Virus record (IMG/VR): IMGVR_UViG_3300042324_001245
Coordinates: 1-23,610 of that record
Length of the DNA: 23,610 nucleotides
Source of the DNA: a virus
Reading direction: 5' to 3' (one strand)
The translations under genes were made by a program, and so were the position numbers. Shown here piece after piece: positions 776 through 23,534 of the stretch (within the stretch, counting starts at the first letter, position 1; each line of letters opens with the position of its first letter). The notes beneath the pieces are model-generated. The model was not told the DNA's origin. It was given only the letters and a program-made list of their open reading frames with translations, and did no database searches.

Positions 776-3700
776 TTATGAAGCTAAAAGAGCAAATCCG
801 GATGGATTCATTACAAAATGATATGCATCAGAATTAATTGTATATACAGTATTACCAGAAATAGTAAGAGTATCCATTGAAAATCTCATTGTATTAGCTG
901 GAAGCGCTGCATTTGTACTAACTGTATTTGTAAAGGTAATAGTGCCGGTATTTAAATTACCAATAGTTGTATCGACATACGTCTTAACAGCATACTCTGT
1001 TGGTACAGCAAGGTTGGAGGCACCAGCCAACGTTCCATCAGAAGAGAACTCGTTAATTGATTCGCCAAGCTGGGCGCCAATCGAACCAAGTCGTAAGCTA
1101 GTCAAACCAGCCAAGTTAAATGCATTCGCATTTAGCGTTGCAGTACCTGTTGCCTGGTCAATTCTAAAAAACTCACCAACCCTGAAGTTACCGCTCTGGT
1201 CAGTGGATACGTAATATACACGACCTGGGAAAGTTTCAACAACCTCGTTACCTTGAGCAGCTGGCTGAGTTGGAACACCAGGATGATTTGTTGTTGTAAC
1301 ACCACCAGTACCAATTGACAAGAAATCGTGGCCAGTAAGTCGCACTTCTGAATAGCGATACCGAATAGTAATTACTGCGTTATTTGCAGAACCAGTTGGT
1401 TTTTCTTGCGATAGCACAATAACCATTCTACTAGTATTATTTACATAAGTACCAGACACGCTTTGAATAACATATGCTAAAGTATCACCGGCAATTGATA
1501 CACTGCCACCTGGTCGTGGAGCTTCGGTTAGACCATCAACAATTAATATGAATCCATCAACTGCTTCAGCTGCACCAAAATCTACAGTAAACAGCCCGCC
1601 GCTAGTTGTTGTACAGTTATTGCCTGCTCCGAATGTTCCTGTTCTATTCTCAATATAAACTTTATCAGCAGAGAATTGAACATTCAAAATAGTTGCTGTT
1701 GCGCCAGTAACAGTATCTGTGATTGTGTCCCCTACGTTTGCTGTTCCACTTACATACACAGCATTCAATTGCTCACCTACTAGAGCACCTGTAATTGGTG
1801 TTTCTGTTGCATCAAACCCTTGTGATGTGGCACCATAAGTACCATATGAGCAGTTGCCATTCAATGACCGAATCTTAGATCCACTAGTGCATGTGTATCC
1901 AAAGGTACAGTAATATGTAAAGTTAGAAACTAGTTCTGCCAATCCACCATTATCAACCCAGTAACCTACACCATTATCTGAAATAACAGTGTAACCATGA
2001 AAAATCATACTCTTATTGCCAGTATTATGGGCAGTGCCGTTAACATAAACACCAATACCGCCAACGCCAATGAATGAACATTCCAGTACATATGGAGATT
2101 TGGTAGTAACAGGAGATGCTTCGTTAAATGCAACTGCAATACCAGCAGGAGTTGACGTTTTGATATCGGCAGCAACAGAACCAGGAACCCAGCCAGTCAT
2201 ACCTCTAAACGTCATTCTGTTCAAAATAGAACCGTTAGACAACTTAAACATTGTTCCTGTTTCAAACCCTGCCGCAGGTTCAACAATAGTTGTGCGTTGG
2301 TTATCGCCAACAATAGCAGTATTTGCAGGAACAACAATTGGTAATTGTTCAGTAAACGTACCTGTTTTAACAAAGATTGTGGCATTAGCACCAGACTGCT
2401 CGCATGCGTATTTGATGGTACGGAAAGGAATTGACAAGTTTCTACCAGCTGTTGCAATATCCTGCCCATGAGGAGCTACATAAAATACTTTATCTGATGC
2501 AGTTGCACCAAGCCAACCGTAGTCCGATCCATTGGATAAAGCAGACAATGATTGACCTACATTGTCTCCATCAAATGCAGGAATAACATCCGCTCCTCCT
2601 ATTGCAAATTCTTCCCACTTAGGCGCCACAGTATAGGTTAGGCCTGTTGGTGTACCTGCGGTTGTAACAATTGCAACGCTTAATGTTGTTTGAAGAGTAA
2701 ATCCAGTAACAGCACCAGCCGAACCAGTAACAGAAGATACTTTATAAGAGTTTCCTGTTGTATAACCGGTAATTGTGCCGGTACCACCAAGAGTACCAGT
2801 AATTGTTACAGTGTCACCAACTATCAGGTTAGTCGCAGTGCAGGTGAACTGACCAGCAGTACCAGAAATTGCCACGCTTGCTAGTGTTCCGCCACTATAA
2901 TCAGTGTTAAATGCTACAGCATTTGACGTATGATCGATCTTAGCAATATAAGCTGAACCACCACTTTTTACAATGTCACCAACTTTAAAAAATGTACTGG
3001 TGGTCCAGTTACCTTTCCAAAAAACACCACTATTAAATTTTTGCCACTTGTTAGCTGCAAGATCGGTAGCGAAAGTTACTGATGCATGTGGTATGAGAGA
3101 TATATAAGTATTTCCCCCATACACTACAACTTCATCAATTCCATATGATGTTGTAGTGCTCCACTCCCCCTTAAACTTAAAACCGGATAATATCTTGTTC
3201 CATGTTTGAGTTGTAGTTGGATTAATGTTGATGTTGTCTGTAATAGCTTGGAATAATGATCCACCATAACTAACAACTTGTCCGATATAATATTGTGTGG
3301 AAGAAGACCAATCAGCTTGATATGCAAAACCAGAAACAAAAATTTCCCAAAAAGTAGCATTGGTGGGAAGGTTGCCTGTTGTGTTAGATTTTGCACGATA
3401 TATGTTGGCGCCATATGCAACTAAATCATTGGGAACATATGCGGTACCATTGTTATAAACAGATTTAGGAGATACGCCATCTACAAACTTATCCCAAAAA
3501 GTAGCATTAGTGGGGTTGTTGTTAGATGTGTCTTGCTTTGCAATGTATACCTGACCACCATATGTAACTACATCGTTTCTTTGATATGAAGTTTGTGCAG
3601 AAAAAGCACCTTCATATTGAATACCGTCAGCAAATAAACTCCAGTATGTTGCATTGGGAGGTGTCTGGTTTGTACTGTCCAGAATAGAAATATATACTTT

Positions 3701-3955
3701 ACCACCGTAAGCTATACCATCGCCTACTTTATAAGCGGTTGAAGAACTATACACACCTTTAAACTTAAAACCTTCAACCATCAGAGCCCAATGCGTTGTA
3801 GTGGTGGGTAAAACACCTGCTGATATCAATGCATATGTATACACATACACGTTACCACCATATTTTACAATGTCATTAGATTCGTACTGGGTGCCGCTGG
3901 CCCAATCACCAGCAAAATGAAATCTTAATTTACCCAAATCTATTAATTGTGTCAT
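776..3955 (-). CDS. Large tail fibre: seven carbohydrate-binding-like modules plus beta-helix
   Basis: This 1059-residue protein has two clear parts. Residues about 12-350 hold seven tandem modules of about 49 residues with the pattern W/Y..-T-Y-..-D-.V.YGG..Y.......P....W..F..G. This resembles the CBM5/12 (chitin-binding type 3) fold of secreted chitinases. The seventh module is interrupted by an insert of about 75 residues rich in Thr, Gly and Val before its closing KWEEFAIGG. From about residue 485 (FYVAPHGQD...IPFRTIKYACE) the sequence looks like the start of a right-handed parallel beta-helix, as in many receptor-binding or depolymerase tailspikes. No catalytic residues can be assigned. 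A later motif, YYVSTDQSGNFRVGEFFRID, resembles segments seen in marine myovirus fibres. The start overlaps the stop of the upstream 85-codon gene (ATGA). The likely role is host-surface glycan recognition; fibre identity is an inference from architecture. Confidence 0.75.
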   Translation of the reverse strand: MTQLIDLGKLRFHFAGDWASGTQYESNDIVKYGGNVYVYTYALISAGVLPTTTTHWALMVEGFKFKGVYSSSTAYKVGDGIAYGGKVYISILDSTNQTPPNATYWSLFADGIQYEGAFSAQTSYQRNDVVTYGGQVYIAKQDTSNNNPTNATFWDKFVDGVSPKSVYNNGTAYVPNDLVAYGANIYRAKSNTTGNLPTNATFWEIFVSGFAYQADWSSSTQYYIGQVVSYGGSLFQAITDNININPTTTQTWNKILSGFKFKGEWSTTTSYGIDEVVVYGGNTYISLIPHASVTFATDLAANKWQKFNSGVFWKGNWTTSTFFKVGDIVKSGGSAYIAKIDHTSNAVAFNTDYSGGTLASVAISGTAGQFTCTATNLIVGDTVTITGTLGGTGTITGYTTGNSYKVSSVTGSAGAVTGFTLQTTLSVAIVTTAGTPTGLTYTVAPKWEEFAIGGADVIPAFDGDNVGQSLSALSNGSDYGWLGATASDKVFYVAPHGQDIATAGRNLSIPFRTIKYACEQSGANATIFVKTGTFTEQLPIVVPANTAIVGDNQRTTIVEPAAGFETGTMFKLSNGSILNRMTFRGMTGWVPGSVAADIKTSTPAGIAVAFNEASPVTTKSPYVLECSFIGVGGIGVYVNGTAHNTGNKSMIFHGYTVISDNGVGYWVDNGGLAELVSNFTYYCTFGYTCTSGSKIRSLNGNCSYGTYGATSQGFDATETPITGALVGEQLNAVYVSGTANVGDTITDTVTGATATILNVQFSADKVYIENRTGTFGAGNNCTTTSGGLFTVDFGAAEAVDGFILIVDGLTEAPRPGGSVSIAGDTLAYVIQSVSGTYVNNTSRMVIVLSQEKPTGSANNAVITIRYRYSEVRLTGHDFLSIGTGGVTTTNHPGVPTQPAAQGNEVVETFPGRVYYVSTDQSGNFRVGEFFRIDQATGTATLNANAFNLAGLTSLRLGSIGAQLGESINEFSSDGTLAGASNLAVPTEYAVKTYVDTTIGNLNTGTITFTNTVSTNAALPANTMRFSMDTLTISGNTVYTINSDAYHFVMNPSGFALLAS

Positions 3956-4613: not shown

Positions 4614-5952
<1,339 letters not shown>

Positions 5953-5972
<20 letters not shown>

Positions 5973-7599
5973 CGTCGTTATCTCTTTCATACTCAGACGA
6001 TAGGGAGTTGTATAATCTAGCCATGCTCTCTATTAGAATTTTTTCTTCTAGAGGCAATTGTACACTCGCCGTATTGTCACTGACTGTGTCTTTATTATAC
6101 GTTAATTGTTCTTGGGTGTCAACACTATCTTCATTATCTTCGTCACCTGATTCATTCTCAATATCTCTATCAATAATTTCTATATCGTCTTCTGTCATTC
6201 TTAAAACATTTTTACGTACCCATGCCTTTGAGAAATATTTGCCTACTAGTGGATCTATATCGCCCAACAGTCTCAATCTCTCTGTCATAATTTCTGATTG
6301 TTTCAATTCTTCAAAATGATTGTCGCTAGCGAAATGGTATGTAATATTGTTCTTTACTTGTTTCCATTCCTCTCTTGTCATTACGCCTGTTAGTGTCAAA
6401 TGTATTTCCAACAACTGATCGAACATTACGGCAAATTTACTTCGGAGACGATTAATGAACTTTTTGAATTTTATTTCATCTCTTGATATTTCTGTCGAAC
6501 GGCCAATGTTGAAATTCACATCTGCTTCCAATCTACTGACAGGTACGTTCAAAGATCTCAAAAGCTTCTTCTGGAAATATAGAACATCGTCCATTTCACC
6601 AAGATTTTGTCCACCAGGCAACGTGGTAATTTCAGTACCTTTACCACCCTCTCTTCGAGGCAACCAAAAATCTTCAAGCATAGTCATATGACGTCTGTCG
6701 TCTCTTACTTCCCCAGTATTTGCATCATATACTAGTTTGTTTTTGTGCCTCACCATCATGTCGCGCAAATATTGCTCTGCTTTCATTTTTGGGAGATTAC
6801 CAACATCAATGTAGAAAATTCTTCTTTCTGGTGCTCTTGATAGTCTGTATATTACTACAGCATCTTCAAGCATTCTCAGTTGATTCAAGGGCTTGATGGC
6901 TTTGTGTAGATTGCCCAATCCCATTTTATTTTTCGAATCGACTAGGCCCGAAGGTACATAGCATATGCTATCTGGTGATATTTTTATACCGCCACTTTTA
7001 TCGGGGACACCTTTGGGATTGTAAATGTAATATTCGACTTGGTTAGGATATTCATCCATACCTGTTTTAGGATCAATTACTTTTTTTTGTTCTCGCATTT
7101 TGCGAATTTTGCGAGGATCAATATAACGTAGTTGCTTAATTCCTTCATTAGGTTTTTCTTTGTCGATCACTATTTGGTAGTACAATCTACCATCGACATA
7201 CCATCTACGAAATATTTCATATCCTTTATTATTGAAATCTAATAGACCTAATATGGTATCAAAATGTTCGCGGACCACTTTTCTGATACGGGGAGGTAAG
7301 TTGGATTCGTCAAGAATTATTTCAATAGGGTCGCTATTATCTTCCATAATAATAGCATCGTTAATTATATCTTCTATCGCTTGATCGCATTCAGGTTGCA
7401 AAGCCATTTCACGATATCTTGTAACCAAATCTGCTTCAGATTTAGCTGATGCCTCCATATCGAGATATGTGCCATACATACCACCAGGGGCAACTTCCGT
7501 AGCTGCTTCTTCTTGGTTTAATGGAACAATAGCTTGAAGATTTGATTGATCTTTCTCCTCGCTCGGTGTTCTTTTTATCTCAAATCCAAACAGCTGCAT
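5953..7599 (-). CDS. gp20: Portal vertex protein (T4 gp20 homologue)
   Basis: This 548-residue protein matches T4 gp20 in length (T4 about 524) and character: an N-terminal GGMYGTYLDMEASAKSEADL region, then RYREMALQPECDQAIEDIIN, YEIFRRWYVDGRLYYQIVID and LRYIDPRKIRKMRE, which are typical of the portal core. gp20 forms the dodecameric ring at the capsid vertex through which DNA is packaged by gp17 and to which the neck attaches. The C-terminal quarter is acidic (ENESGDEDNEDSVDTQEQ). A GAGG Shine-Dalgarno precedes the ATG and sits between 6-bp inverted arms (TTACGA/TCGTAA). A late promoter box lies 38 nt upstream, in the loop of a terminator hairpin. In T4, gp20 is followed by prohead core, protease and capsid genes; here a collagen-like gene overlaps its end instead. 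Confidence 0.95.
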
Positions 7600-14480: not shown

Positions 14481-15224
14481 TCAACCTATCATGTCAGCGA
14501 CGGGAAGACTGTAGCTAGAAATCATCTCATCTTCTAGTTTAATAAGAGCTTCTTGAGACTCTTCCCATATTTTTTGACCATTGAATGTTATACCACCTGG
14601 CATCTGCAACCCTTCAAACTTTTTGAGATTTTCTCCCCATTGCCTCTTGATAAGTTGAGTGGTATAACGGAGTAACCATCTGTCACTATACATATCCGTA
14701 TTTTCATCAGGATTAATAACTCTATACGCATCAAGAATTATGTAGCTGTCAACAGGTATTTTATCTTCCCAGCTGGTGTCAATGAACACCCTGTTGTTGT
14801 GACGATTGTATCTGATCGGCTGTTTTCCGACAAAAATTTCTTCGAGCAAATTGACATGCGTCATTGCCATAACATAAGGAACAACGGACGATTGGAGAAG
14901 GTCGTATAGATCGTTTAAGTGTATCTGATATCTTACATTAAACAAATTGTTGACAGAGTATGTACCGCCAAGTACAAAGCAACCCGACACACCAATTATG
15001 GCCTCGGGTACAGTTATGAAACCATTTATTTGATCTTGGGTAGTACACTGGTGCTTGTAATAAACATGTTCGGTACCATCGAAATGATAGTCCCGATAAT
15101 AAGCAATAGCCTCATCAATGCGATCTTCAAGTTGCTCGTCGTCAACGTTTATATCAACAACGGGTGCTCCAAGATTACGGAGACAATATTGTTTCAAATC
15201 TTCTCGTGACGTGGGTCTTGCCAT
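14481..15224 (-). CDS. gp13: Neck protein, head completion (T4 gp13 homologue)
   Basis: This 247-residue protein is shorter than T4 gp13 (309), as in marine T4-like phages. The N-terminus has the family pattern LKQYCLRNLGAPVVDINVDD, EQLEDRIDEAIAYYRDYHFD, followed by a beta-rich middle and an amphipathic ending (LLRYTTQLIKRQWGENLKKF). In T4, gp13 binds the portal after packaging and recruits gp14. It is the first gene behind a late promoter box 37 nt upstream and heads the gp13-gp17 transcript. The upstream ACAGTT sequence is a weak ribosome-binding site, with AAGGT further upstream. Confidence 0.87.
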   Translation of the reverse strand: MARPTSREDLKQYCLRNLGAPVVDINVDDEQLEDRIDEAIAYYRDYHFDGTEHVYYKHQCTTQDQINGFITVPEAIIGVSGCFVLGGTYSVNNLFNVRYQIHLNDLYDLLQSSVVPYVMAMTHVNLLEEIFVGKQPIRYNRHNNRVFIDTSWEDKIPVDSYIILDAYRVINPDENTDMYSDRWLLRYTTQLIKRQWGENLKKFEGLQMPGGITFNGQKIWEESQEALIKLEDEMISSYSLPVADMIG

Positions 15225-15293: not shown

Positions 15294-15887
15294 CTACCTA
15301 AATTCAACCCAGCCAGTCATAATATATTTTTCTCCTGACAAAGGAGGATTGCCTCTGTGCGCCCAAGGGTAGTTAGGAGGAAATATAATTAATCGTCCTT
15401 TTTTAGGAGCAATGCGCTTTGATTGATAGAGAAACTCTGTTTCACCACCCTCAGCTACATCATTCAAATATAGAATATATACACCTATTCTATCAGAGAA
15501 ACTCTTACTACCGTCTTCACTATGCCACACATGGTATCCACCTGAGGGTAAGGTTTTTTGAACTTTGTAGGTATATATTGTGTGATCTTGATAGTTGTTC
15601 AAATCGCTAAAATTGTTGGTGTAATTCTTATAACACACATCCCAAAAACTTGTATTGAATTCTTGCAACAAATGTTGGATGTGTTGTGAAGAAAAACTAA
15701 TTTCATTTGAAGTAGGATTGAGATTACACGACTCATCCTTTTTCATTATCTCTGGATTTGATCTACTATAGGTTCTGTTGTTTGCTTGGCACCATTTGAA
15801 ATGTTCAATTATTTTATCACAAAAATTAATTGAAAATGCACCATCATAAACACCAATAAAATTATCGTACTCAGCAATCATATTCAT
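15294..15887 (-). CDS. 2OG-Fe(II) oxygenase, prolyl-hydroxylase type (second copy)
   Basis: This 197-residue protein has the double-stranded beta-helix motifs of the prolyl 4-hydroxylase-like superfamily. WHSEDG (His122, Glu124) is an H-x-E form of the usual H-x-D iron site, YLNDVAEGGETEF is the typical core strand, KGRLIIFP precedes the distal His177 (AHRGNPPLSG), and Lys187 in KYIMTGWVEF is the probable 2-oxoglutarate-binding base. This subtype is common in marine T4-like phages, where the substrate is unknown. It starts by an ATGA overlap with the stop of the first oxygenase and has no good Shine-Dalgarno, so it depends on translational coupling. The two oxygenases share the fold but little sequence, so they are not a recent duplication. 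A collagen-like protein is an attractive substrate because of context, but DNA, ribosomal proteins or small molecules are also hydroxylated by this superfamily. Confidence 0.88.
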   Translation of the reverse strand: MNMIAEYDNFIGVYDGAFSINFCDKIIEHFKWCQANNRTYSRSNPEIMKKDESCNLNPTSNEISFSSQHIQHLLQEFNTSFWDVCYKNYTNNFSDLNNYQDHTIYTYKVQKTLPSGGYHVWHSEDGSKSFSDRIGVYILYLNDVAEGGETEFLYQSKRIAPKKGRLIIFPPNYPWAHRGNPPLSGEKYIMTGWVEFR

Positions 15888-16477
15888 CTAAATTTAGGCC
15901 CCGCTATCCACGCAACTAAAGATTTTCTCACACCACGAGTAACAGGTGTTACTCTATGTAGTATATAGCTTGGAAATAAAACCGCTAATCCTTTTTGTTT
16001 TTGTACAATAGTGGGGTCGCGGCTCGTCATTATTTCCAGATTACCCCCATCATATTCATCGGGGTCAGTTAATTGTATTACTATAGATAATTTTCTGGGA
16101 CTCTCAGTGTTAGTACCGGCATCCATATGCCAATCATAGTGACCGTCTTTATCACTTTCGTATACAGAAAATTGTAAACTTTCACATAACCCGTGTATAT
16201 CAAAACCATAATATTCACTATTGAGGTTTTGTATAATATATCTCAATCTATTATACAGCCAGTCTGTACTTTGGTCATAATGAATCCAAGATACATCGGT
16301 GCTGCGATAATCATCGTCAACAGTATTTTTATTTATTACAGCACGACTTTTTATACGCGATTCACCCATTTCTATTATTTGTTCAATTTCACTGTCAGAA
16401 AAACCATCCCGCCATGTTGTGAAGGAATGATCTCCATACCCCCTTGAGGGGGCTGGAGTAAAAATATAATGTGTCAT
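15884..16477 (-). CDS. 2OG-Fe(II) oxygenase, PKHD-type hydroxylase
   Basis: This 197-residue protein has the complete active site of the PKHD-type/prolyl hydroxylase family: HMD (His117, Asp119) and His174 for iron, and Arg184 in the HRVTPVTRGVR segment for 2-oxoglutarate. That segment is nearly the motif of bacterial YbiX/PiuC proteins (HRVTPVTRG). YDGGNLEI and KGLAVLFPSY are further family elements. Such enzymes couple decarboxylation of 2-oxoglutarate to hydroxylation, often of prolyl residues. The ATG overlaps the stop of the 1196-residue Gly-X-Y gene (ATGA), so both are made from the same transcript by coupled translation. Y-position prolines in that protein are the obvious candidate substrate, by inference only. 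Confidence 0.92.
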   Translation of the reverse strand: MTHYIFTPAPSRGYGDHSFTTWRDGFSDSEIEQIIEMGESRIKSRAVINKNTVDDDYRSTDVSWIHYDQSTDWLYNRLRYIIQNLNSEYYGFDIHGLCESLQFSVYESDKDGHYDWHMDAGTNTESPRKLSIVIQLTDPDEYDGGNLEIMTSRDPTIVQKQKGLAVLFPSYILHRVTPVTRGVRKSLVAWIAGPKFR

Positions 16478-19400
16478 TGTCTATCCCAATCTACTACAAT
16501 TTCTCCTGAACTTGCTACGGTTACTGGAAATGTAGATCTCATTGTAATTGATGCTTGCGCATTTTGAATATTAGCAGCAGCGCCTGAATTACCTGCACCA
16601 CCACCGCCCGCACCGGTACCGTTATTACCCGATGTTCCTGCATTACCATTGTTACCAGGATTACCAGGATTACCAGCTGGTGTACCAGAACCAGATGATC
16701 CTGTGTTGCCTGGTGAACCATTGTTGCCTGCTGATCCTGGGTTACCAGCTGGTGTACCAGAACCAGATGCTCCTGTGTTACCTGGTGAACCATTGCTGCC
16801 AGGATTACCAGGATTACCAGCTGGTGTACCAGAACCAGATGCTCCTGTGTTACCTGGTGAACCATTGCTGCCAGGATTACCAGGATTTCCAGCTGGTGTA
16901 CCAGAACCAGATGCTCCTGTGTTGCCTGGCGATCCGTTGCTACCAGCATTACCTGGATTGCCAGGATTAGCACCAGTACCAGATGCTCCTGTGTTACCTG
17001 CAGGGCCTGGGCTTCCAGGATTGCCAGGACTTCCTGCTCCACCACCTGAACCTGGTGATCCATTACTACCAGGGTTTCCTGGTCCACTACCAGGATTACC
17101 AGGATTACCAGCGTTACCAGGATTACCAGGATTACCAGGGCTACCTGGATTACCTGCATATCCTGGATTACCTGGCGATCCCCCTGTTGCACCGAAACCA
17201 CCAGGGCCTGCACCACCTGGGTTGCCAGGTGATCCGCCAGAGCCTGGATTACCTGGACCGCCTGGATTACCAGGGTTACCTGGATTCCCTGGATTGCCAT
17301 AACCAGAATTACCAGGACTACCAGGATTACCAGAACCACCAGGACTACCTGAACCTCCCCCTGAACTACCCCCACTACCCCCACTACCTCCACCACCAGG
17401 TGATCCTGGAGATCCTGGATTTTGATAATTTATACTAACAGAACCGGAGATGCTTGTAACAGTACCCCCACCTCCTCCTCCACCACCACCAGCATTACCG
17501 GCATAACCAGGATTACCAGGACCACCAGGATTACCAGCGTTACCAGCGTTACCAGGATTGCCTGGGGGTCCACCATAACCACCTGGTCCATTATTACCAG
17601 GATTACCGGCATAACCAGGGGAACCAGGATTACCAACGGGGCTGCCAGCACCAGCGTTTCCATTACCACCTGGGTTACCACCACTGCCTGAATTTCCTGG
17701 ATTACCTGCTGATCCTCCCGAACCACCCGTTCCATTGTAACCAGGATTACCAGGATTACCTGCACTTCCTGGATTACCTGCTGATCCACCAGCGCCGGCC
17801 GATCCATTATAACCTGGGCTACCAGCATTACCTTGGGCACCTGGATTACCGGCATTACCACCACCGCCACCTGATCCATTATTACCAGGATTGCCTGAAT
17901 TACCTTGGGCACCTGGATTACCAGCACTACCACCTGTGCCACCTACACCATTGTTACCAGGATTTCCCGAATTACCTTGGGCACCTGGATTACCAGCACT
18001 ACCACCTGTGCCACCTACACCATTGTTACCAGGATTACCTGAATTACCTTGGGCACCTGGATTACCAGCACTACCACCTGTGCCACCTACACCATTGTTA
18101 CCAGGATTTCCCGAATTACCTTGGCCACCTGGGTTACCAGCACTACCACCAGTACCACCTACACCATTGTTACCAGGATTTCCCGAATTACCTTGGGCAC
18201 CTGGATTACCCGTTACACCTGCACTGCCTGCACTACCGGCATTACCACCTGAGAAATTAATAGAGAAAACGTTCGATACATTACCTACATTACCATCAGC
18301 TCCTGGATTACCTGCTGCTCCTGGGTTTCCAGGACTTCCAGCCGCACCTGGATTAGCACCAGTACCATCAGCTCCTGGATTACCTGCTGCTCCTGGGTTT
18401 CCAGGACTTCCAGCCCCGCCTGCATTAGCACCAGTACCATCAGCTCCTGGATTACCTGCTGCTCCTGGGTTTCCAGGACTTCCGGCCGCACCTGGATTAG
18501 CACCTGTACCATCAGCTCCTGGATTACCTGCTGCTCCTGGGTTTCCAGGACTTCCAGCCGCACCTGGATTGGCACCAGTACCATTAGCTCCTGGATTACC
18601 CCCTGATCCAGCATTTCCTGGCGAACCTGGTTGACCTGAACCTGCTCCCGATCCCCCACTACCTGGGTTGCCTGCATAACCAGGATTACCTGGATTACCT
18701 GGATTGCCGGAAGAGGCACCTGATCCACCACCTCCTGGATTACCTGGTGATCCAGGACTTCCTGGGGAACCTGGTTGACCCGAACCTGCTCCAAATCCAT
18801 TATTACCTGGGTTACCACCACTGCCTGGATTTCCTGGATTTCCTGGATTTCCTGGGTTGGCACCAGAACCTGAAGGACCAGGATTGCCGAAGAATCCATT
18901 GGATCCTGGACTGCCTGGACTACCTGGACTGCCGCCTGGATTTCCTGGATTACCAGGAGGGCCGTAATTACCCCCATTACCACCTACGCCATATGATCCA
19001 TACATAAACACGGCACCAGGTGCATTGGCTGTTGCTCCAGTACTACCAGCAGGCCCACCAGGACCACCGTTACCCGATCCACTGCCTCCTCCTGGACCAG
19101 CCACGCTTCCTGTAAAACCAGCAGGAAAAGATCCTAAATAAACGAAGAAAAATTGACTGCCACCACCTGATCCCCCATTACCACCTGGGGAACCACCACT
19201 ACCACCGTTACCACCAGAACCACCGCTGCCACCAGGTCCACCTGGACCAGCATAACCAGGATTGCCCACACCACCAGGATTACCAGCATTACCACCAGTA
19301 CCTCCATTACCACCGGTACCATTGCTACCACCATTGCCAGGATTACCAGGATTACCAGGATTACCTCCTGCTCCACCTGGACCACCTGGACCACCACTAC

Positions 19401-20064
19401 CAGAGTTACCTGGGCTACCTGGGTTACCAGCAGCACCACCAGTTCCGGCGTTACCAGCATTACCAAACCCACCTGGATTACCAGCATTGCCAGCATTACC
19501 GGCGTTGCCACCTGCCCCACCTGCTCCACCTGGCCCATTGGTACCAGGGTTACCAGATGCTCCTGGATTACCGGCATTGCCTTGGGCACCACCAGCCCCC
19601 CCAGTACCAAATGTACCAGCGTTACCAGATGCTCCTGGATTACCGGCATTGCCTTGGGCACCACCAGCCCCCCCAGTACCAAATGTACCAGCGTTACCAG
19701 ATGCTCCTGGATTACCGGCATTGCCGGCAGCTCCCCCTGCTCCACCAGTACCAAATGTACCAGCGTTACCAGATGCTCCTGGATTACCAGCATTACCTTG
19801 GGCACCACCTGCTCCACCAGTACCAAATGTACCAGGGTTACCTGATGCTCCTGGATTGCCAGCATTGCCGGCAGCTCCACCTGCTCCACCAGTACCGTTA
19901 TTTCCTGGATTACCAGGATTACCAGGATTACCAGGAGAACCTTTTCCCGCCACAGTCACATCTTCCACGCCAAATGGAGACGTGAAATTTCCACTCGCGT
20001 TAAAAGTTTCTGTATCGCCTGGAACTAAGGTTCTTCGCGTTAAGGTGGTTCTTGAAATAGGCAA
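16474..20064 (-). CDS. Giant Gly-X-Y repeat (collagen-like or polyglycine-II) fibre protein
   Basis: This 1196-residue protein begins at a TTG (20062-20064) with GAGGGA six bases upstream; the Shine-Dalgarno lies over the stop of the previous gene. Residues about 1-40 (ETFNASGNFTSPFGVEDVTV) resemble the N-terminus of phage glycine-rich domains. Residues about 41-1150 are Gly-X-Y triplets made mostly of Gly, Asn, Pro, Ala and Ser, with GNP and GSP very frequent and virtually no Lys. Four blocks repeat every 24 residues. Short hydrophobic interruptions occur near residues 302 (FFFVYLGSF), 350 (AVFMYGSYG), 593 (VFSINFSG) and 866 (SISGSVSINYQN). The C-terminus (SITMRSTFPVTVASSGEIVV) is non-repetitive and beta-like. 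It could form a collagen triple helix or a bundle of polyglycine-II helices as in some phage adhesins. Function as a fibre or adhesin is inferred. Confidence 0.88.
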   Translation of the reverse strand: MPISRTTLTRRTLVPGDTETFNASGNFTSPFGVEDVTVAGKGSPGNPGNPGNPGNNGTGGAGGAAGNAGNPGASGNPGTFGTGGAGGAQGNAGNPGASGNAGTFGTGGAGGAAGNAGNPGASGNAGTFGTGGAGGAQGNAGNPGASGNAGTFGTGGAGGAQGNAGNPGASGNPGTNGPGGAGGAGGNAGNAGNAGNPGGFGNAGNAGTGGAAGNPGSPGNSGSGGPGGPGGAGGNPGNPGNPGNGGSNGTGGNGGTGGNAGNPGGVGNPGYAGPGGPGGSGGSGGNGGSGGSPGGNGGSGGGSQFFFVYLGSFPAGFTGSVAGPGGGSGSGNGGPGGPAGSTGATANAPGAVFMYGSYGVGGNGGNYGPPGNPGNPGGSPGSPGSPGSNGFFGNPGPSGSGANPGNPGNPGNPGSGGNPGNNGFGAGSGQPGSPGSPGSPGNPGGGGSGASSGNPGNPGNPGYAGNPGSGGSGAGSGQPGSPGNAGSGGNPGANGTGANPGAAGSPGNPGAAGNPGADGTGANPGAAGSPGNPGAAGNPGADGTGANAGGAGSPGNPGAAGNPGADGTGANPGAAGSPGNPGAAGNPGADGNVGNVSNVFSINFSGGNAGSAGSAGVTGNPGAQGNSGNPGNNGVGGTGGSAGNPGGQGNSGNPGNNGVGGTGGSAGNPGAQGNSGNPGNNGVGGTGGSAGNPGAQGNSGNPGNNGVGGTGGSAGNPGAQGNSGNPGNNGSGGGGGNAGNPGAQGNAGSPGYNGSAGAGGSAGNPGSAGNPGNPGYNGTGGSGGSAGNPGNSGSGGNPGGNGNAGAGSPVGNPGSPGYAGNPGNNGPGGYGGPPGNPGNAGNAGNPGGPGNPGYAGNAGGGGGGGGGTVTSISGSVSINYQNPGSPGSPGGGGSGGSGGSSGGGSGSPGGSGNPGSPGNSGYGNPGNPGNPGNPGGPGNPGSGGSPGNPGGAGPGGFGATGGSPGNPGYAGNPGSPGNPGNPGNAGNPGNPGSGPGNPGSNGSPGSGGGAGSPGNPGSPGPAGNTGASGTGANPGNPGNAGSNGSPGNTGASGSGTPAGNPGNPGSNGSPGNTGASGSGTPAGNPGNPGSNGSPGNTGASGSGTPAGNPGSAGNNGSPGNTGSSGSGTPAGNPGNPGNNGNAGTSGNNGTGAGGGGAGNSGAAANIQNAQASITMRSTFPVTVASSGEIVVDWDRQ
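16684..16971. repeat. 72-bp tandem repeat block, four units
   Basis: Unit starts at 16684, 16756, 16828 and 16900 are exactly 72 nt apart. Each unit encodes eight triplets, one of which (TPA) lacks the leading glycine. Units differ by a few bases. Confidence 0.9.
17833..18210. repeat. 72-bp tandem repeat block, five to six units
   Basis: A TTGGGC/TTGGCC anchor recurs at 17833, 17905, 17977, 18049, 18121 and 18193, always 72 nt apart. The unit encodes GNPGAQGNSGNPGNNGVGG plus TGGSA, all perfect Gly-X-Y triplets. Central units are the most similar; the last is partial. Confidence 0.9.
18295..18600. repeat. 72-bp tandem repeat block, four units plus a partial
   Basis: Unit starts at 18295, 18367, 18439, 18511 and a diverging one at 18583 are 72 nt apart. 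Each encodes eight triplets, of which one (ANP, once ANA) has Ala in place of the leading Gly. Confidence 0.9.
19552..19911. repeat. 72-bp tandem repeat block, five units
   Basis: Unit starts at 19552, 19624, 19696, 19768 and 19840 are exactly 72 nt apart. Each encodes GAGGAQGNAGNPGASGNAG plus TFGTG or variants in unbroken Gly-X-Y register. Near-identical units indicate recent duplication or gene conversion. Confidence 0.9.
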
Positions 20065-20067
20065 GGT

Positions 20068-20391
20068 TTATCCCTCGAATGCTTTCAATTCAGCCCACGG
20101 AGCCGATAAAATATTTTCAATGCCGTGCACTAAAACTTGTTGTGGATACCCTTCTGAATACAACTTCTCGTAAACCACAAAAGGGAAGGTAGGTGATTCA
20201 ACAGCATATTCTGTATTGATGAAGTTGAGTCTGGCCCAATTTAAAATTTGATCCATACCACTCCAATAATGCATGTGCCGATATTCAATACCATTTTCGT
20301 TCAGATGTTCCATTGCTTGAACACCACTAGCAGCCGTGCTATCAAATGCGGTGTATAGATAAAAATTTGAATTTTGTACATGTGTTGTCAT
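20068..20391 (-). CDS. Glutaredoxin-like fold protein lacking active-site cysteines
   Basis: This 107-residue protein reads like a glutaredoxin across its first half: a hydrophobic strand (FYLYTA), a loop where glutaredoxins have C-P-Y-C but here is FDSTAASG, a helix (VQAMEHLNENGIEYRHMHYW) matching the family's LxxxGIxYxxx, and a TFPFVVYE segment where glutaredoxins have the cis-proline strand TVPQIFI. No cysteine is present anywhere, so it cannot be a thiol oxidoreductase; the fold may be reused as a structural or chaperone-like protein. The family assignment is my pattern reading and needs a profile search. AAGGAG lies 8 nt before the ATG, next to the previous gene's stop. It sits between a fibre-like gene and the Gly-X-Y gene, so a fibre assembly role is possible. 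Confidence 0.6.
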   Translation of the reverse strand: MTTHVQNSNFYLYTAFDSTAASGVQAMEHLNENGIEYRHMHYWSGMDQILNWARLNFINTEYAVESPTFPFVVYEKLYSEGYPQQVLVHGIENILSAPWAELKAFEG

Positions 20392-20403: not shown

Positions 20404-20967
20404 TTAAGCAACGTTTGCTAGTGCAAGAGTACCAAAATAACTGGTACCTTGATCTATTGTGAAGAATGTAAGTACATCAATATCTGTTGCGCCAGTCGAT
20501 AAAGGCGGTAACAGACCATCAGTATATTTTGCTCCCGTAAAAGTAGCTGTTCTATTACCTGTTGCATCTTGACGTAAAACAATAGTTGCAGGCTGAGAGA
20601 ATGTAGCAGCAGGAGGATTAATAAATGTGAATGTCACATTTGCCCCTAGAGTAACATCAAATATATTGCCTTGATCAAGATTTATATTCGTTGCAGTAGT
20701 TACCGTACCTAGCGATACTATCTTTTCTTTATACGATTGAAAATTCGCATCGCTAATAGTGCGGTTATTATCAATAATAGTTGCGCCAGAAATTTGTAAT
20801 GTATTGGCACTTACAACCTTAAAAATGTTTGTATTACCAGTGAAAGTGTTATTGGCTGAAACGCCAGCAGCCACATTTATAATCTGGTTAGTACGCCCAC
20901 GCCACTGATTGAACGTGTCCGTTATTGCCACGTTGGCTAGCAAAATTCCCGAGTTAAACAAGGCCAT
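20404..20967 (-). CDS. Small virion/fibre-like structural protein
   Basis: This 187-residue protein opens MALFNSGILLANVAITDTFN followed by QWRGRTNQI, an N-terminus seen on structural or fibre-related proteins of marine T4-like phages. The rest is rich in Thr, Asn, Ala and beta-branched residues (NTFTGNTNIFKVVSANTLQI; GNIFDVTLGANVTFTFINPP), typical of beta-sandwich virion proteins. There is no cysteine and no catalytic motif. AAAGG precedes the ATG, and a perfect TATAAATA late box is about 30 nt upstream, making it the first gene of the late transcript that includes the Gly-X-Y gene and both oxygenases. It may be the attachment domain or partner of the Gly-X-Y fibre, by position. Confidence 0.65.
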   Translation of the reverse strand: MALFNSGILLANVAITDTFNQWRGRTNQIINVAAGVSANNTFTGNTNIFKVVSANTLQISGATIIDNNRTISDANFQSYKEKIVSLGTVTTATNINLDQGNIFDVTLGANVTFTFINPPAATFSQPATIVLRQDATGNRTATFTGAKYTDGLLPPLSTGATDIDVLTFFTIDQGTSYFGTLALANVA

Positions 20968-21087: not shown

Positions 21088-21111
21088 TCTTTGAAACCAT
21101 GGGAGTATATT

Positions 21112-21921
21112 GTGAATAATGAAACTATAAAAGTATTTGTGGGATGTGCACCTAACGGTGAAGATGCAGAATCAATGATGGTACTAGAATATAGTATCAA
21201 AAAACATTGTAGCATGCCAGTTGAAATAGTATGGATGATGATAAGCGATGATCCAAATAGTTTTTGGTATGGCTGGGATTCCTCAAAATGGGCTACACCG
21301 TTTTCTGCTTTCAGATGTGCAATTCCCGAATACTGTAATTTTCAAGGGCAGTCCATATATATGGATAGTGATGTCATGGTCCTTGCTGACTTAGCTGAAC
21401 TTTGGAATTTACCATGGACCGATGATACAGCAATTGTACAATCAAGAGGCAAGTGGCGACTGTGTGTTAGTAAATTCAACAACGAGCGATGTCGCGATAA
21501 TCCAGCATGGCCCAGAGTAGCCCAGCACAAAAAGTATCCAGACTTGTACGGTAACGTGTACGGATTAATAAGTCGTACAGATTCGCTCAGACAAGATTTT
21601 GGATCTGAATGGAACAATCTTGATGGCGAAAACAATACACTACTTTCTGAAATAAAAATACTTCATTATACTGACATGTCATCACAGCCCCAGTTAAAAT
21701 ATGCTATTCCTAGACTCGAGCAGCAAGGTAAAAAACATTGGTTTGATGGACAAGTGAAGCAGCATAAAAGAGCGGATGTACAGGAGTTGTTTGATACTTT
21801 GTATCAAGAAGCAATCCAGGAAGGGTATCGCTTGGAAGATTATTTGCCAAAGCGCTCTTACGATATCAACTACAAAAAAGCATGTTTGAAAAACTGGAGT
21901 TTTGATAAGCTGAGAGGATAG
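21112..21921 (+). CDS. GT8-like glycosyltransferase
   Basis: This is the only convincing plus-strand gene in the window. The preferred start is GTG at 21112 (269 residues) with GGGAG six bases upstream; an in-frame TTG at 21091 lacks a Shine-Dalgarno. The protein looks like a GT-A fold family-8-type transferase: an N-terminal strand (IKVFVGCAPNGED), SIKKHCSMPVEIVWMM, FSAFRCAIPEYCNFQGQSIY, then YMDSDVMVLADLAELWNLP with the metal-binding D-x-D (Asp85, Asp87), and ILHYTDMSSQPQ with His185 where GT8 enzymes have a second metal ligand. It would transfer a sugar from a nucleotide-sugar; acceptor unknown. Its stop is 2 nt from the stop of the convergent 84-codon gene. It belongs to a local group of glycan-related genes and may act on virion proteins or host surface glycans. 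Confidence 0.8.
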   Translation: MNNETIKVFVGCAPNGEDAESMMVLEYSIKKHCSMPVEIVWMMISDDPNSFWYGWDSSKWATPFSAFRCAIPEYCNFQGQSIYMDSDVMVLADLAELWNLPWTDDTAIVQSRGKWRLCVSKFNNERCRDNPAWPRVAQHKKYPDLYGNVYGLISRTDSLRQDFGSEWNNLDGENNTLLSEIKILHYTDMSSQPQLKYAIPRLEQQGKKHWFDGQVKQHKRADVQELFDTLYQEAIQEGYRLEDYLPKRSYDINYKKACLKNWSFDKLRG

Positions 21922-21923
21922 AT

Positions 21924-22178
21924 CTATTTGGTAGTTGTGTATACCATATTGACGTGTTCCACATCTTGATCGTTTAATTCTTCAGTATCTTGATTATTGA
22001 GAATATTGTATAGACGATCAATCAACACATCAATAACTATGCTCATCTCGTCTAACTCTTGCTGCATATTAGCTCGCTTTTGAACTAGATGTATTATTCT
22101 TTCATCTAACAATGCTTGCTCTTGAGTAAAGTCTTCTCGATCATACTCAAATCCATCTATAATTAATTTATTTGACAT
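21924..22178 (-). CDS. Small coiled-coil protein, DUF6447-like
   Basis: This 84-residue protein starts MSNKLIIDGFEYDREDFTQE, then a long helix LLDERIIHLVQKRANMQQEL with heptad-like spacing to about residue 60, and an acidic tail. The pattern 'I-x-I-D-G-x-x-Y, then a helical coiled coil' resembles small phage and bacterial proteins of the DUF6447 type; the match is tentative. AAGGAA is found about 11 nt before the ATG, which overlaps the end of the 236-codon gene by 11 nt. Function unknown; small coiled-coil proteins of this type often sit beside fibre or glycan genes in marine phages. Confidence 0.55.
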   Translation of the reverse strand: MSNKLIIDGFEYDREDFTQEQALLDERIIHLVQKRANMQQELDEMSIVIDVLIDRLYNILNNQDTEELNDQDVEHVNMVYTTTK

Positions 22179-22878
22179 TTATCATAGATTCCTTAATATT
22201 ACCCAATAATAATTTAGATTGGGTTATTTTGCTTTCCACAATCTCAGAAATATCAACCTTAATATTATTTGTATATTGATACAGTAATTCAAATGGCATT
22301 AGAAGGAACGACTCAATACTACTGGACTCAATAATTTCATTAGAAAAATTAATTAGTCCAGCATTTTGAGTAAGCCACACATTCCTTTTCAACATCATAT
22401 GTGCCTCTAATATTTCTGGCATCAAACAATCATCTTTGCCATTCAACCCATATGACATCAACGATACTTTCAAATCTTGTTTCATATCCCATATGTTGCC
22501 GTTCCGATGTTCAGAATATTGTCGCGGATTCACTAGCATAACATCAGTATCAAATGCTGTTTTCCAATCTGCTATTCCTGATATTTCATATGCTTTATAA
22601 TAGGATTTCTTTAAGTAAGCACCTGGGTATTTTTTACCAACGCTAAAATATCTTGTGTTCTCCTGTATTGCTTGGAGTAGTTGCTTTTCAAAAGGGATGT
22701 TAATAATTTTAACAGAGTTACCTCTAATAAAAAAAACAGGATCTGTTAAAGACGTATTTTCATCAATGTAAGTGTCGACGTTATCAGTTACAATAACTTC
22801 CACTGCAGATGAGCAATGTCTTTCAATTGATGCTAATGTAATTTCTAGATATTTGCTTTTCTCAAGTAGAATTATCAT
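22168..22878 (-). CDS. Putative glycosyltransferase-like protein (D-x-D motif)
   Basis: This 236-residue protein is only weakly recognisable. Features suggesting a GT-A-like transferase are an N-terminal EITLASIERHCSSAVEVIVT, resembling the first strand-helix-strand of nucleotide-sugar-binding folds, and GIADWKTAFDTDVMLVNP with a D-x-D at Asp110/Asp112 in a hydrophobic strand. The preceding YLKKSYYKAYEIS helix also resembles that seen before the D-x-D in family-8-type enzymes. The C-terminal 60 residues are helical. It starts within the stop of the upstream 219-codon gene (ATGA), so the two are translationally coupled and probably act together. No membrane segment is visible. The alternative is a nucleotide-sugar-binding protein without transferase activity. 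Confidence 0.45.
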   Translation of the reverse strand: MIILLEKSKYLEITLASIERHCSSAVEVIVTDNVDTYIDENTSLTDPVFFIRGNSVKIINIPFEKQLLQAIQENTRYFSVGKKYPGAYLKKSYYKAYEISGIADWKTAFDTDVMLVNPRQYSEHRNGNIWDMKQDLKVSLMSYGLNGKDDCLMPEILEAHMMLKRNVWLTQNAGLINFSNEIIESSSIESFLLMPFELLYQYTNNIKVDISEIVESKITQSKLLLGNIKESMINVK

Positions 22879-23534
22879 GTTCTTTTACATATCAAATTGT
22901 AAGAGTTTAAAAAATTATACATTTTTTCAACAGCACGAGGATCATCCATGTGTATTATTCCACTATACTCACTTGACAATAATTTATGTAGAGCATCCCG
23001 AGCTGAATAATGTTGTGAATTTAAAATAGTGTTGTAGATTGATCCGTACGTACAAGGACCTGAATATTTTTCATTTTGTACCAAACACATCTTCTTACCC
23101 AACAACAAAGAGGATAAACCCATTTCTGAATTTTTACAACAAAAAACTACTTTGGCATTCAGCAAGTATTGGAATGCACTAGCGTTGCTATTTAACACAT
23201 TGGCATCACCGAATTGTTTTCTCAACATAAACAAATGATAATTACTCGTCAAAGGATGGGGCTTAACTTTAGCACCTTGGTTGTCTACAATATCCTTAAC
23301 TTTATTGAAATCCAATATGTCATCTAATATATTTGTACCAGGCAAAAAAACAACACGGTCGTAGAATTGCTCCTCCTGATGAGGGATCAAATTATACTTG
23401 TCAGCCAAATTATTTGCTATACGATGAACCACAAAAGGATCAATGGTTTCATGTTTGTTCAATAAAACTGTTTCGAGTATTTCTGTGTTTAATTTATCAC
23501 TAGGCACACGAAAATACAAACACTTGTTTAACAT
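22875..23534 (-). CDS. Putative GT-B-type glycan/capsule transferase-like protein
   Basis: This 219-residue protein has no sure family. Its second half (KPHPLTSNYHLFMLRKQFGD ... AFQYLLNAKVVFCCKNSEMG, LSSLLLGKKMCLVQN) resembles the C-terminal nucleotide-sugar-binding half of GT-B enzymes in capsule, sialic-acid or CDP-glycerol-type polymer synthesis, where K-P-H-P, a 'v..s.S' strand and a 'e.ll.gkp..l' helix-strand recur. The N-terminal half is shorter than usual, so the enzyme may be reduced. The ATG lacks a Shine-Dalgarno; a sigma70-like promoter is 20-50 nt upstream, different from the late boxes elsewhere, suggesting earlier or host-polymerase expression. The stop overlaps the next start (ATGA). 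Confidence 0.45.
   Translation of the reverse strand: MLNKCLYFRVPSDKLNTEILETVLLNKHETIDPFVVHRIANNLADKYNLIPHQEEQFYDRVVFLPGTNILDDILDFNKVKDIVDNQGAKVKPHPLTSNYHLFMLRKQFGDANVLNSNASAFQYLLNAKVVFCCKNSEMGLSSLLLGKKMCLVQNEKYSGPCTYGSIYNTILNSQHYSARDALHKLLSSEYSGIIHMDDPRAVEKMYNFLNSYNLICKRT

Follow-up and report, generated by a model that had tools for sequence, protein, structure and literature searches.

The virus record IMGVR_UViG_3300042324_001245 of the IMG/VR database (23,610 bases, analysed over its whole length and called the window below) carries, in a late T4-like block on the minus strand, a gene for a giant Gly-X-Y tail fibre or adhesin followed by two genes for 2-oxoglutarate- and iron-dependent (2OG-Fe(II)) oxygenases, here named oxA and oxB. 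The oxygenases and the fibre are very probably coupled in function, we infer with good confidence that the enzymes hydroxylate the fibre, and prolines at the Y position (Y-Pro) are a likely target, be it the only one or one of several. The best explanation is likely to be that the three genes form a fibre-maturation unit, in which oxA and oxB hydroxylate Y-Pro.

16474 to 20064, minus strand: tail-fibre or adhesin gene of Gly-X-Y type (probable glycine-rich lattice), 1196 amino acids, TTG start, the proposed substrate
19930 to 20064, minus strand: N-terminal fibre-family segment (ETFNASGNFTSPFGVEDVTVAGKG), beta strands at residues 17-41
16474 to 16560, minus strand: C-terminal fibre-family segment (ITMRSTFPVTVASSGEIVVDWDRQ), beta strands at residues 1178-1193
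15884 to 16477, minus strand: oxA, 2OG-Fe(II) oxygenase, 197 amino acids, H-x-D/H/R
15294 to 15887, minus strand: oxB, 2OG-Fe(II) oxygenase, 197 amino acids, H-x-E/H/K

The first-pass annotation of this DNA had described a 1196-residue Gly-X-Y gene followed, through ATGA overlaps, by two 2OG-Fe(II) oxygenase genes, and re-reading found this exact, with ATGA at both the fibre gene/oxA and the oxA/oxB junction. The TTG start of the Gly-X-Y open reading frame is preceded by GAGGGATAAACC.

The same annotation had proposed a survey of the co-occurrence and adjacency of such genes. Run in IMG/VR from four starting points (oxB, GNPGNPGNPG DNA, an oxA profile and the fibre N-terminus), the survey gave an overwhelming result in both directions. 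The GNPGNPGNPG DNA scan, which is blind to oxygenases, led to an oxA or oxB homologue within 3.5 kb at 42 of 55 non-redundant loci, all 42 on the same strand and 18 within 100 bases, whereas a DNA scan for classic collagens found an oxygenase within 3.5 kb at 0 of 74 loci (Fisher 9e-23). Starting from the oxA profile, 39 of 68 distinct loci had a Y-Pro fibre; each of these fibres shared the strand of the oxygenase, the median distance was 776 bases, and none of 400 random placements was as close; an IMG/VR scan with the single oxA sequence found nothing. The fibre N-terminus was scanned as a single peptide, its alignment being too variable for scanning, and the fibres from this start were linked in 39 of 40 cases with at least two Y-Pro versus 4 of 11 with fewer (p 2e-5).

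The nearest relatives of oxB show the order fibre-oxA-oxB in seven loci, and among those of at least 52% identity with enough flank, 6 of 9 lie no more than 3.5 kb from a Y-Pro Gly-X-Y gene. Relatives that keep the oxygenases and lack any Gly-X-Y protein, which the first-pass annotation had regarded as telling against its proposal, were encountered only among distant oxB homologues: at 47% identity or less, a Y-Pro fibre neighbour occurred at 0 of 26. These distant relatives lack the fibre neighbour, so the fibre-linked oxB forms a specialised branch within a broader family of enzymes. The oxygenases and the fibre stay adjacent in at least five gene orders, namely oxA-oxB-fibre (63), fibre-oxA (28), fibre-oxA-oxB (14), oxB-fibre-oxA (11) and fibre-oxB-oxA (5), and adjacency preserved despite rearrangement is the pattern that functional coupling would leave. 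Quick trees, built on biased sampling, imply several gains and losses of linkage, with a minimum of 16 label changes for oxA and 9 for oxB.

Bacterial and archaeal genomes yielded four oxB relatives only, all in metagenome bins, one of which (locus L535) has the order oxA-oxB-fibre. No Y-Pro fibre lay within about 8 kb of the inspected oxygenases in nine phage records, cultured and uncultured, and none was present in the examined stretches of three records close to the window by terminase. In cultured phages, the fibre N-terminus gave only two weak, partial matches, both in a single Burkholderia phage (E 0.4). Locus L236 encodes a fibre-like protein with 94 triplets and no proline; oxA and oxB are absent from this 6.4-kb locus, and its 64-kb record holds one weak PF13640 match.

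The counts bear out the claim that proline sits at Y, as in the collagen substrates of prolyl 4-hydroxylases (P4Hs). The window fibre has 116-118 prolines at Y and 13-14 at X, depending on the run cut-off. Its Y-Pro include 82 in GNP and 30 in GSP triplets, whereas GAP and GTP are absent from its runs, even though X is often Ala or Thr. In 91 linked proteins that were picked without regard to GNP, 13.9% of Y positions are proline, against 3.3% at X, and most of these Y-Pro follow Asn, Gln or Ser; the corresponding values for 73 classic phage collagens are 4.0% (Y) and 39.0% (X). The commonest X residue is Asn; before Y-Pro, the linked proteins are enriched in Asn (2.1-fold) and Gln (2.4-fold), Ser occurs as expected, and Y-Pro is avoided after Ala (0.21-fold), Gly, Val and Pro. 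Both kinds of gene occur in the window, the other one being absent from the first-pass annotation:

4614 to 5990: second collagen-like gene, classic GPKGDT type, 9.3 kb from the oxygenases

This gene has no neighbouring oxygenase, and it carries 3 prolines at Y and 22 at X, against 116 and 13 in the linked gene. We rejected Y-Pro bias alone as diagnostic of hydroxylation, since a polyproline-II bundle could favour Y-Pro as well.

Domain match, HxD/E...H motif and basic residue place both proteins in the 2OG-Fe(II) oxygenase superfamily. Both match Pfam 2OG-FeII_Oxy_3 (PF13640) above the cut-off (oxA E 1.1e-16, oxB E 1.4e-12), the sites being H117-x-D119...H174...R184 in oxA and H122-x-E124...H177...K187 in oxB. 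That both sites are intact had been stated before and was confirmed: the catalytic residues are invariant among close relatives (10 oxA and 11 oxB sequences), and the fibre-linked homologues keep HDHR in 141 of 147 and HEHK in 111 of 115 cases, so neither enzyme is degenerate. Lys187 of oxB, at the 2-oxoglutarate-binding position, is conserved. Searched against the PDB (E at most 0.01), the oxB profile matched prolyl 4-hydroxylases only, the best being that of Bacillus anthracis (3itq, 5hv0; E 3.5e-12), whose iron site we take to be HxD, as opposed to HxE in oxB. The oxA profile matched PiuC, of the PKHD type, first (E 1.4e-11), then the B. anthracis P4H and human EGLN1/PHD2, and no asparaginyl hydroxylase was among the nearest solved relatives of either protein. 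By these profile matches, oxA and oxB belong to the prolyl-hydroxylase (P4H/PHD) branch, with sequence leaving the target residue unproven; as oxB departs from the HxD iron triad, it is named P4H-like rather than P4H. At L454:2644-3231 and L402:6340-6918, the same fibre module holds a third oxygenase, which falls into other Pfam families (weak matches to PF13532 and PF13759).

We propose that the large protein serves as a tail fibre or adhesin rich in glycine, in which a small beta sandwich would carry the Gly-X-Y stretches, packed as polyproline-II/polyglycine-II-like strands, and that oxA and oxB would be translated from the same late message. With Fe(II), 2-oxoglutarate and O2, they would hydroxylate the Y-prolines of [N/S/Q]-P-G sites on the newly made chain, before it folds, presumably with some division of labour. 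The added hydroxyls might rigidify the polyproline-II strands and place polar groups on their outer face, with better folding, stability or receptor binding as the putative benefit. Offered GNPGNPGNPG, GNAGNAGNAG, GSPGSPGSP, GAPGAPGAP and GPKGDTGPK, the enzymes should then act on GNP and GSP and poorly on GNA and GAP.

The first-pass annotation had seen prolyl-hydroxylase-type enzymes acting on the phage's own collagen-like fibre; the P4H/PHD relationship and the adjacency stand, whereas a triple helix stabilised by hydroxyproline is not supported. A trimeric collagen rod, with its long runs wound into a triple helix held by 4-hydroxyproline, would suit the longest uninterrupted runs (87 and 67 triplets), the Pfam Collagen match (E 1.3e-36, beside PHROG tail-fibre matches) and Y-Pro as in animal collagen, yet we consider it improbable. 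The Pfam match arises because Gly occupies every third residue, from which a triple helix does not follow. The Gly-X-Y body is split into runs that restart exactly every 24 residues in two stretches (405, 429, 453 ... 573; 1035, 1059 ... 1131), a spacing that suits a folded-back lattice better than a straight triple helix, unproven as this is. Many large family members contain super-repeats, whose length ranges from 24 to 36 residues and is 24 in the window fibre, and many linked relatives have short runs and poly-Gly only. The ends of the family are conserved (PAGSxTFNSSGTFTxPFGVxxVxVxGxG at the N-terminus, YxVTVxSGGxVxISWxxQ at the C-terminus), and the N- and C-terminal strands are the only confident parts of the AlphaFold2 model of the window fibre. 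L109, a linked relative of 289 amino acids (41-sequence alignment), is modelled by AlphaFold as a single chain with 124 residues at a predicted local distance difference test score (pLDDT) of at least 90, GNP segments included, and its best PDB match is cyanophage Pam3 gp24 (Z 7.1, a value that a chance match of arrangements can also reach; 83 residues, 2.4 Å). In this best-modelled relative, the predicted single-chain fold takes in the glycine-rich segments and resembles the glycine-rich lattice of Pam3 gp24 (PMC9608196), and the label 'collagen' is probably wrong. Neither S16 gp38 nor the snow flea antifreeze protein came up in the structure matches, and comparison of the full window fibre model (VIA-align) reached Z 2.2 at best. 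A PDB match to 8zxl, 'spindlefibril', is low-complexity GAPGAPGSQ similarity.

Hydroxylation might instead fall on another residue, most likely the Asn at X, as with FIH, or on a mix with one enzyme per residue, leaving Y-Pro as a feature of the fold. The frequency of Asn at X and its enrichment before Y-Pro fit this explanation, as do the two different enzymes per locus and the fibres of L455 and L522, which have an adjacent oxygenase and no Y-Pro in their runs; we nevertheless judge it unlikely, since the solved relatives are mostly prolyl hydroxylases, with no asparaginyl hydroxylase, and since linkage within the fibre family follows Y-Pro content. The latter correlation also counts against the oxygenases being auxiliary genes that hitch-hike with a mobile cassette of the tail fibre and whose substrate belongs to the host or is a nucleotide. 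While marine phages often carry 2OG-Fe(II) oxygenases, which in cyanophages occur in many contexts, and distant oxB relatives lack such a fibre, the variety of gene orders (at least five), the strand shared in every case and the missing link at classic phage collagens make hitch-hiking very unlikely.

Hydroxylation of Y-Pro by oxA and oxB is the reading that we prefer, and several points weigh against it. The body of the window fibre has a pLDDT below 50 in the AlphaFold2 model, so that the lattice fold rests on the relative L109 and its match to Pam3 gp24. The iron site of oxB is HxE, in the window as in nearly all linked homologues, whereas P4Hs have Asp; certain 2OG oxygenases are nevertheless active with HxE. 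The glycine-rich fibres of L455, L522, L524 and L525 have an adjacent oxygenase and zero Y-Pro in their runs, so proline may not be the sole target, and the Y-Pro bias could arise from the lattice fold itself. In addition, the linked loci belong to related phages, which makes the counts partly non-independent, and the classic-collagen control is unmatched for habitat.

The genes around the three are as follows.

20068 to 20391, minus strand: 107-amino-acid conserved small protein adjoining the fibre gene, recurrent in the module
20404 to 20967, minus strand: tail-fibre C-terminal domain protein (PHROG tail fibre E 3.7e-11), recurrent upstream neighbour in the module
14481 to 15224, minus strand: T4 gp13-like neck gene directly downstream of oxB (PHROG head-tail adaptor E 1e-39)
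21091 to 21921, plus strand: GT8-like glycosyltransferase next to the fibre block
22168 to 23534, minus strand: two further genes, one of them phrog_26179

The gp13-like gene places the module in the late tail/neck block; the names of structural genes beyond gp13 we presume from T4 gene order. The window terminase shares about 55% identity with its homologues in cyanophages and Methylophilales phages. The 107-amino-acid protein has no Pfam or PHROG match, and small proteins like it, some only distantly alike, recur beside fibre genes in several loci; it is possibly an assembly factor or chaperone. That hydroxylated Pro (or Asn) would be a handle for glycosylation, for example by the GT8-like enzyme 1 kb away, seems doubtful; if true, a phage fibre would bear plant-like hydroxyproline-linked sugars tuning receptor binding. 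A further probable fibre, of 1059 amino acids, is encoded at 776-3955 of the window; its repeated 'FKFKGVYSSSTAYKVGDGIAYGGKVYIS' units are similar to carbohydrate-binding repeats.

Three cultured phages, S-CAM9 (locus L366; KU686205, 1528-10387), S-8S55 (L542) and Roseobacter CRP-6 (L541), have tail fibres with GQKGEKG-like repeats, carrying 22-26 Lys and 0-2 Pro at Y. Near the S-CAM9 fibre, one protein combines a GT25 domain (Pfam E 1.4e-28) with a PLOD-GT domain (Pfam E 7.6e-47), and its counterpart in S-8S55 and CRP-6 was found by homology; the two cyanophages, S-CAM9 and S-8S55, also have tandem 2OG oxygenases. By analogy with mimivirus L230, these modules look as if they hydroxylate the lysines of a phage collagen and glycosylate it. 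The kind of enzyme present thus seems to match the residue found at Y, and this supports the broader notion that Gly-X-Y fibres undergo modification by phages. Single proteins combining GT4/GT1, GT25 and OGFOD2-like/2OG domains occur at L435:5704-7944 (746 amino acids) and L448:5072-7525 (817 amino acids), beside collagens with many Y-Lys (86 and 28).

Overall, the results suggest that many uncultured water-dwelling phages with the module finish their own fibres chemically. If so, tailed phages run their own post-translational fibre chemistry, with a lysine version in cultured cyanophages, and would offer compact hydroxylases for Gly-X-Y materials. The module provides a candidate substrate, a site motif and co-expressible gene pairs, making the question testable in E. 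coli, and names a specific substrate on which a very common class of marine phage enzymes, so far without explanation, can be tried. According to a 2022 survey, the prolyl 4-hydroxylase gene P4HA is among the abundant auxiliary genes of Baltic viruses, its use being called cryptic (PMC9301287). The open-licence literature yielded no paper on a phage prolyl hydroxylase with collagen-like fibres or on this module.

To our knowledge, viral self-hydroxylation is already known as a kind, and we know of no paired enzyme-fibre module for Chlorella virus PBCV-1, which is a virus of eukaryotes, whereas oxA and oxB come from a phage. PiuC/PKHD-type hydroxylases, bacterial and iron-related, are the best solved relatives of oxA and share its H-x-D/H/R site, oxA being phage-borne and fibre-linked. 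The prolyl 4-hydroxylase of PBCV-1 is virus-coded and has known peptide substrates (Eriksson 1999, cited in PMC9301287). The B. anthracis P4H accepts synthetic peptides, whose Pro it hydroxylates with a preference for the Y position; it is cellular, and the consulted portion of the source reports no location beside a substrate gene (PMC8968730), whereas oxB is phage-borne and fibre-linked. Mimivirus has collagens and collagen-modifying enzymes, one of them a 2OG lysyl hydroxylase (L230, a lysyl hydroxylase-glycosyltransferase), according to PMC5802723 and PMC9546862; acting on lysine and with glycosylation, it is nearer to the S-CAM9 arrangement than to the window module. In Pam3 gp24, TNF-like strands extend into a four-layer glycine-rich lattice with a variable tip proposed to bind receptors (PMC9608196), and the Salmonella phage S16 adhesin gp38 has a beta base and a glycine-rich lattice with a variable tip (PMC6851490). 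Both are much shorter than the window fibre, and hydroxylases are not mentioned in the consulted portions of the two sources. A 2012 analysis described bacterial and viral collagens, E. coli prophage collagen-like proteins included, as having neither a Y-Pro preference nor prolyl hydroxylases (PMC3368898). The linked fibre group is therefore an exception: like the prophage proteins, its members are Gly-X-Y fibres, and the window module has both a Y-Pro preference and candidate enzymes.

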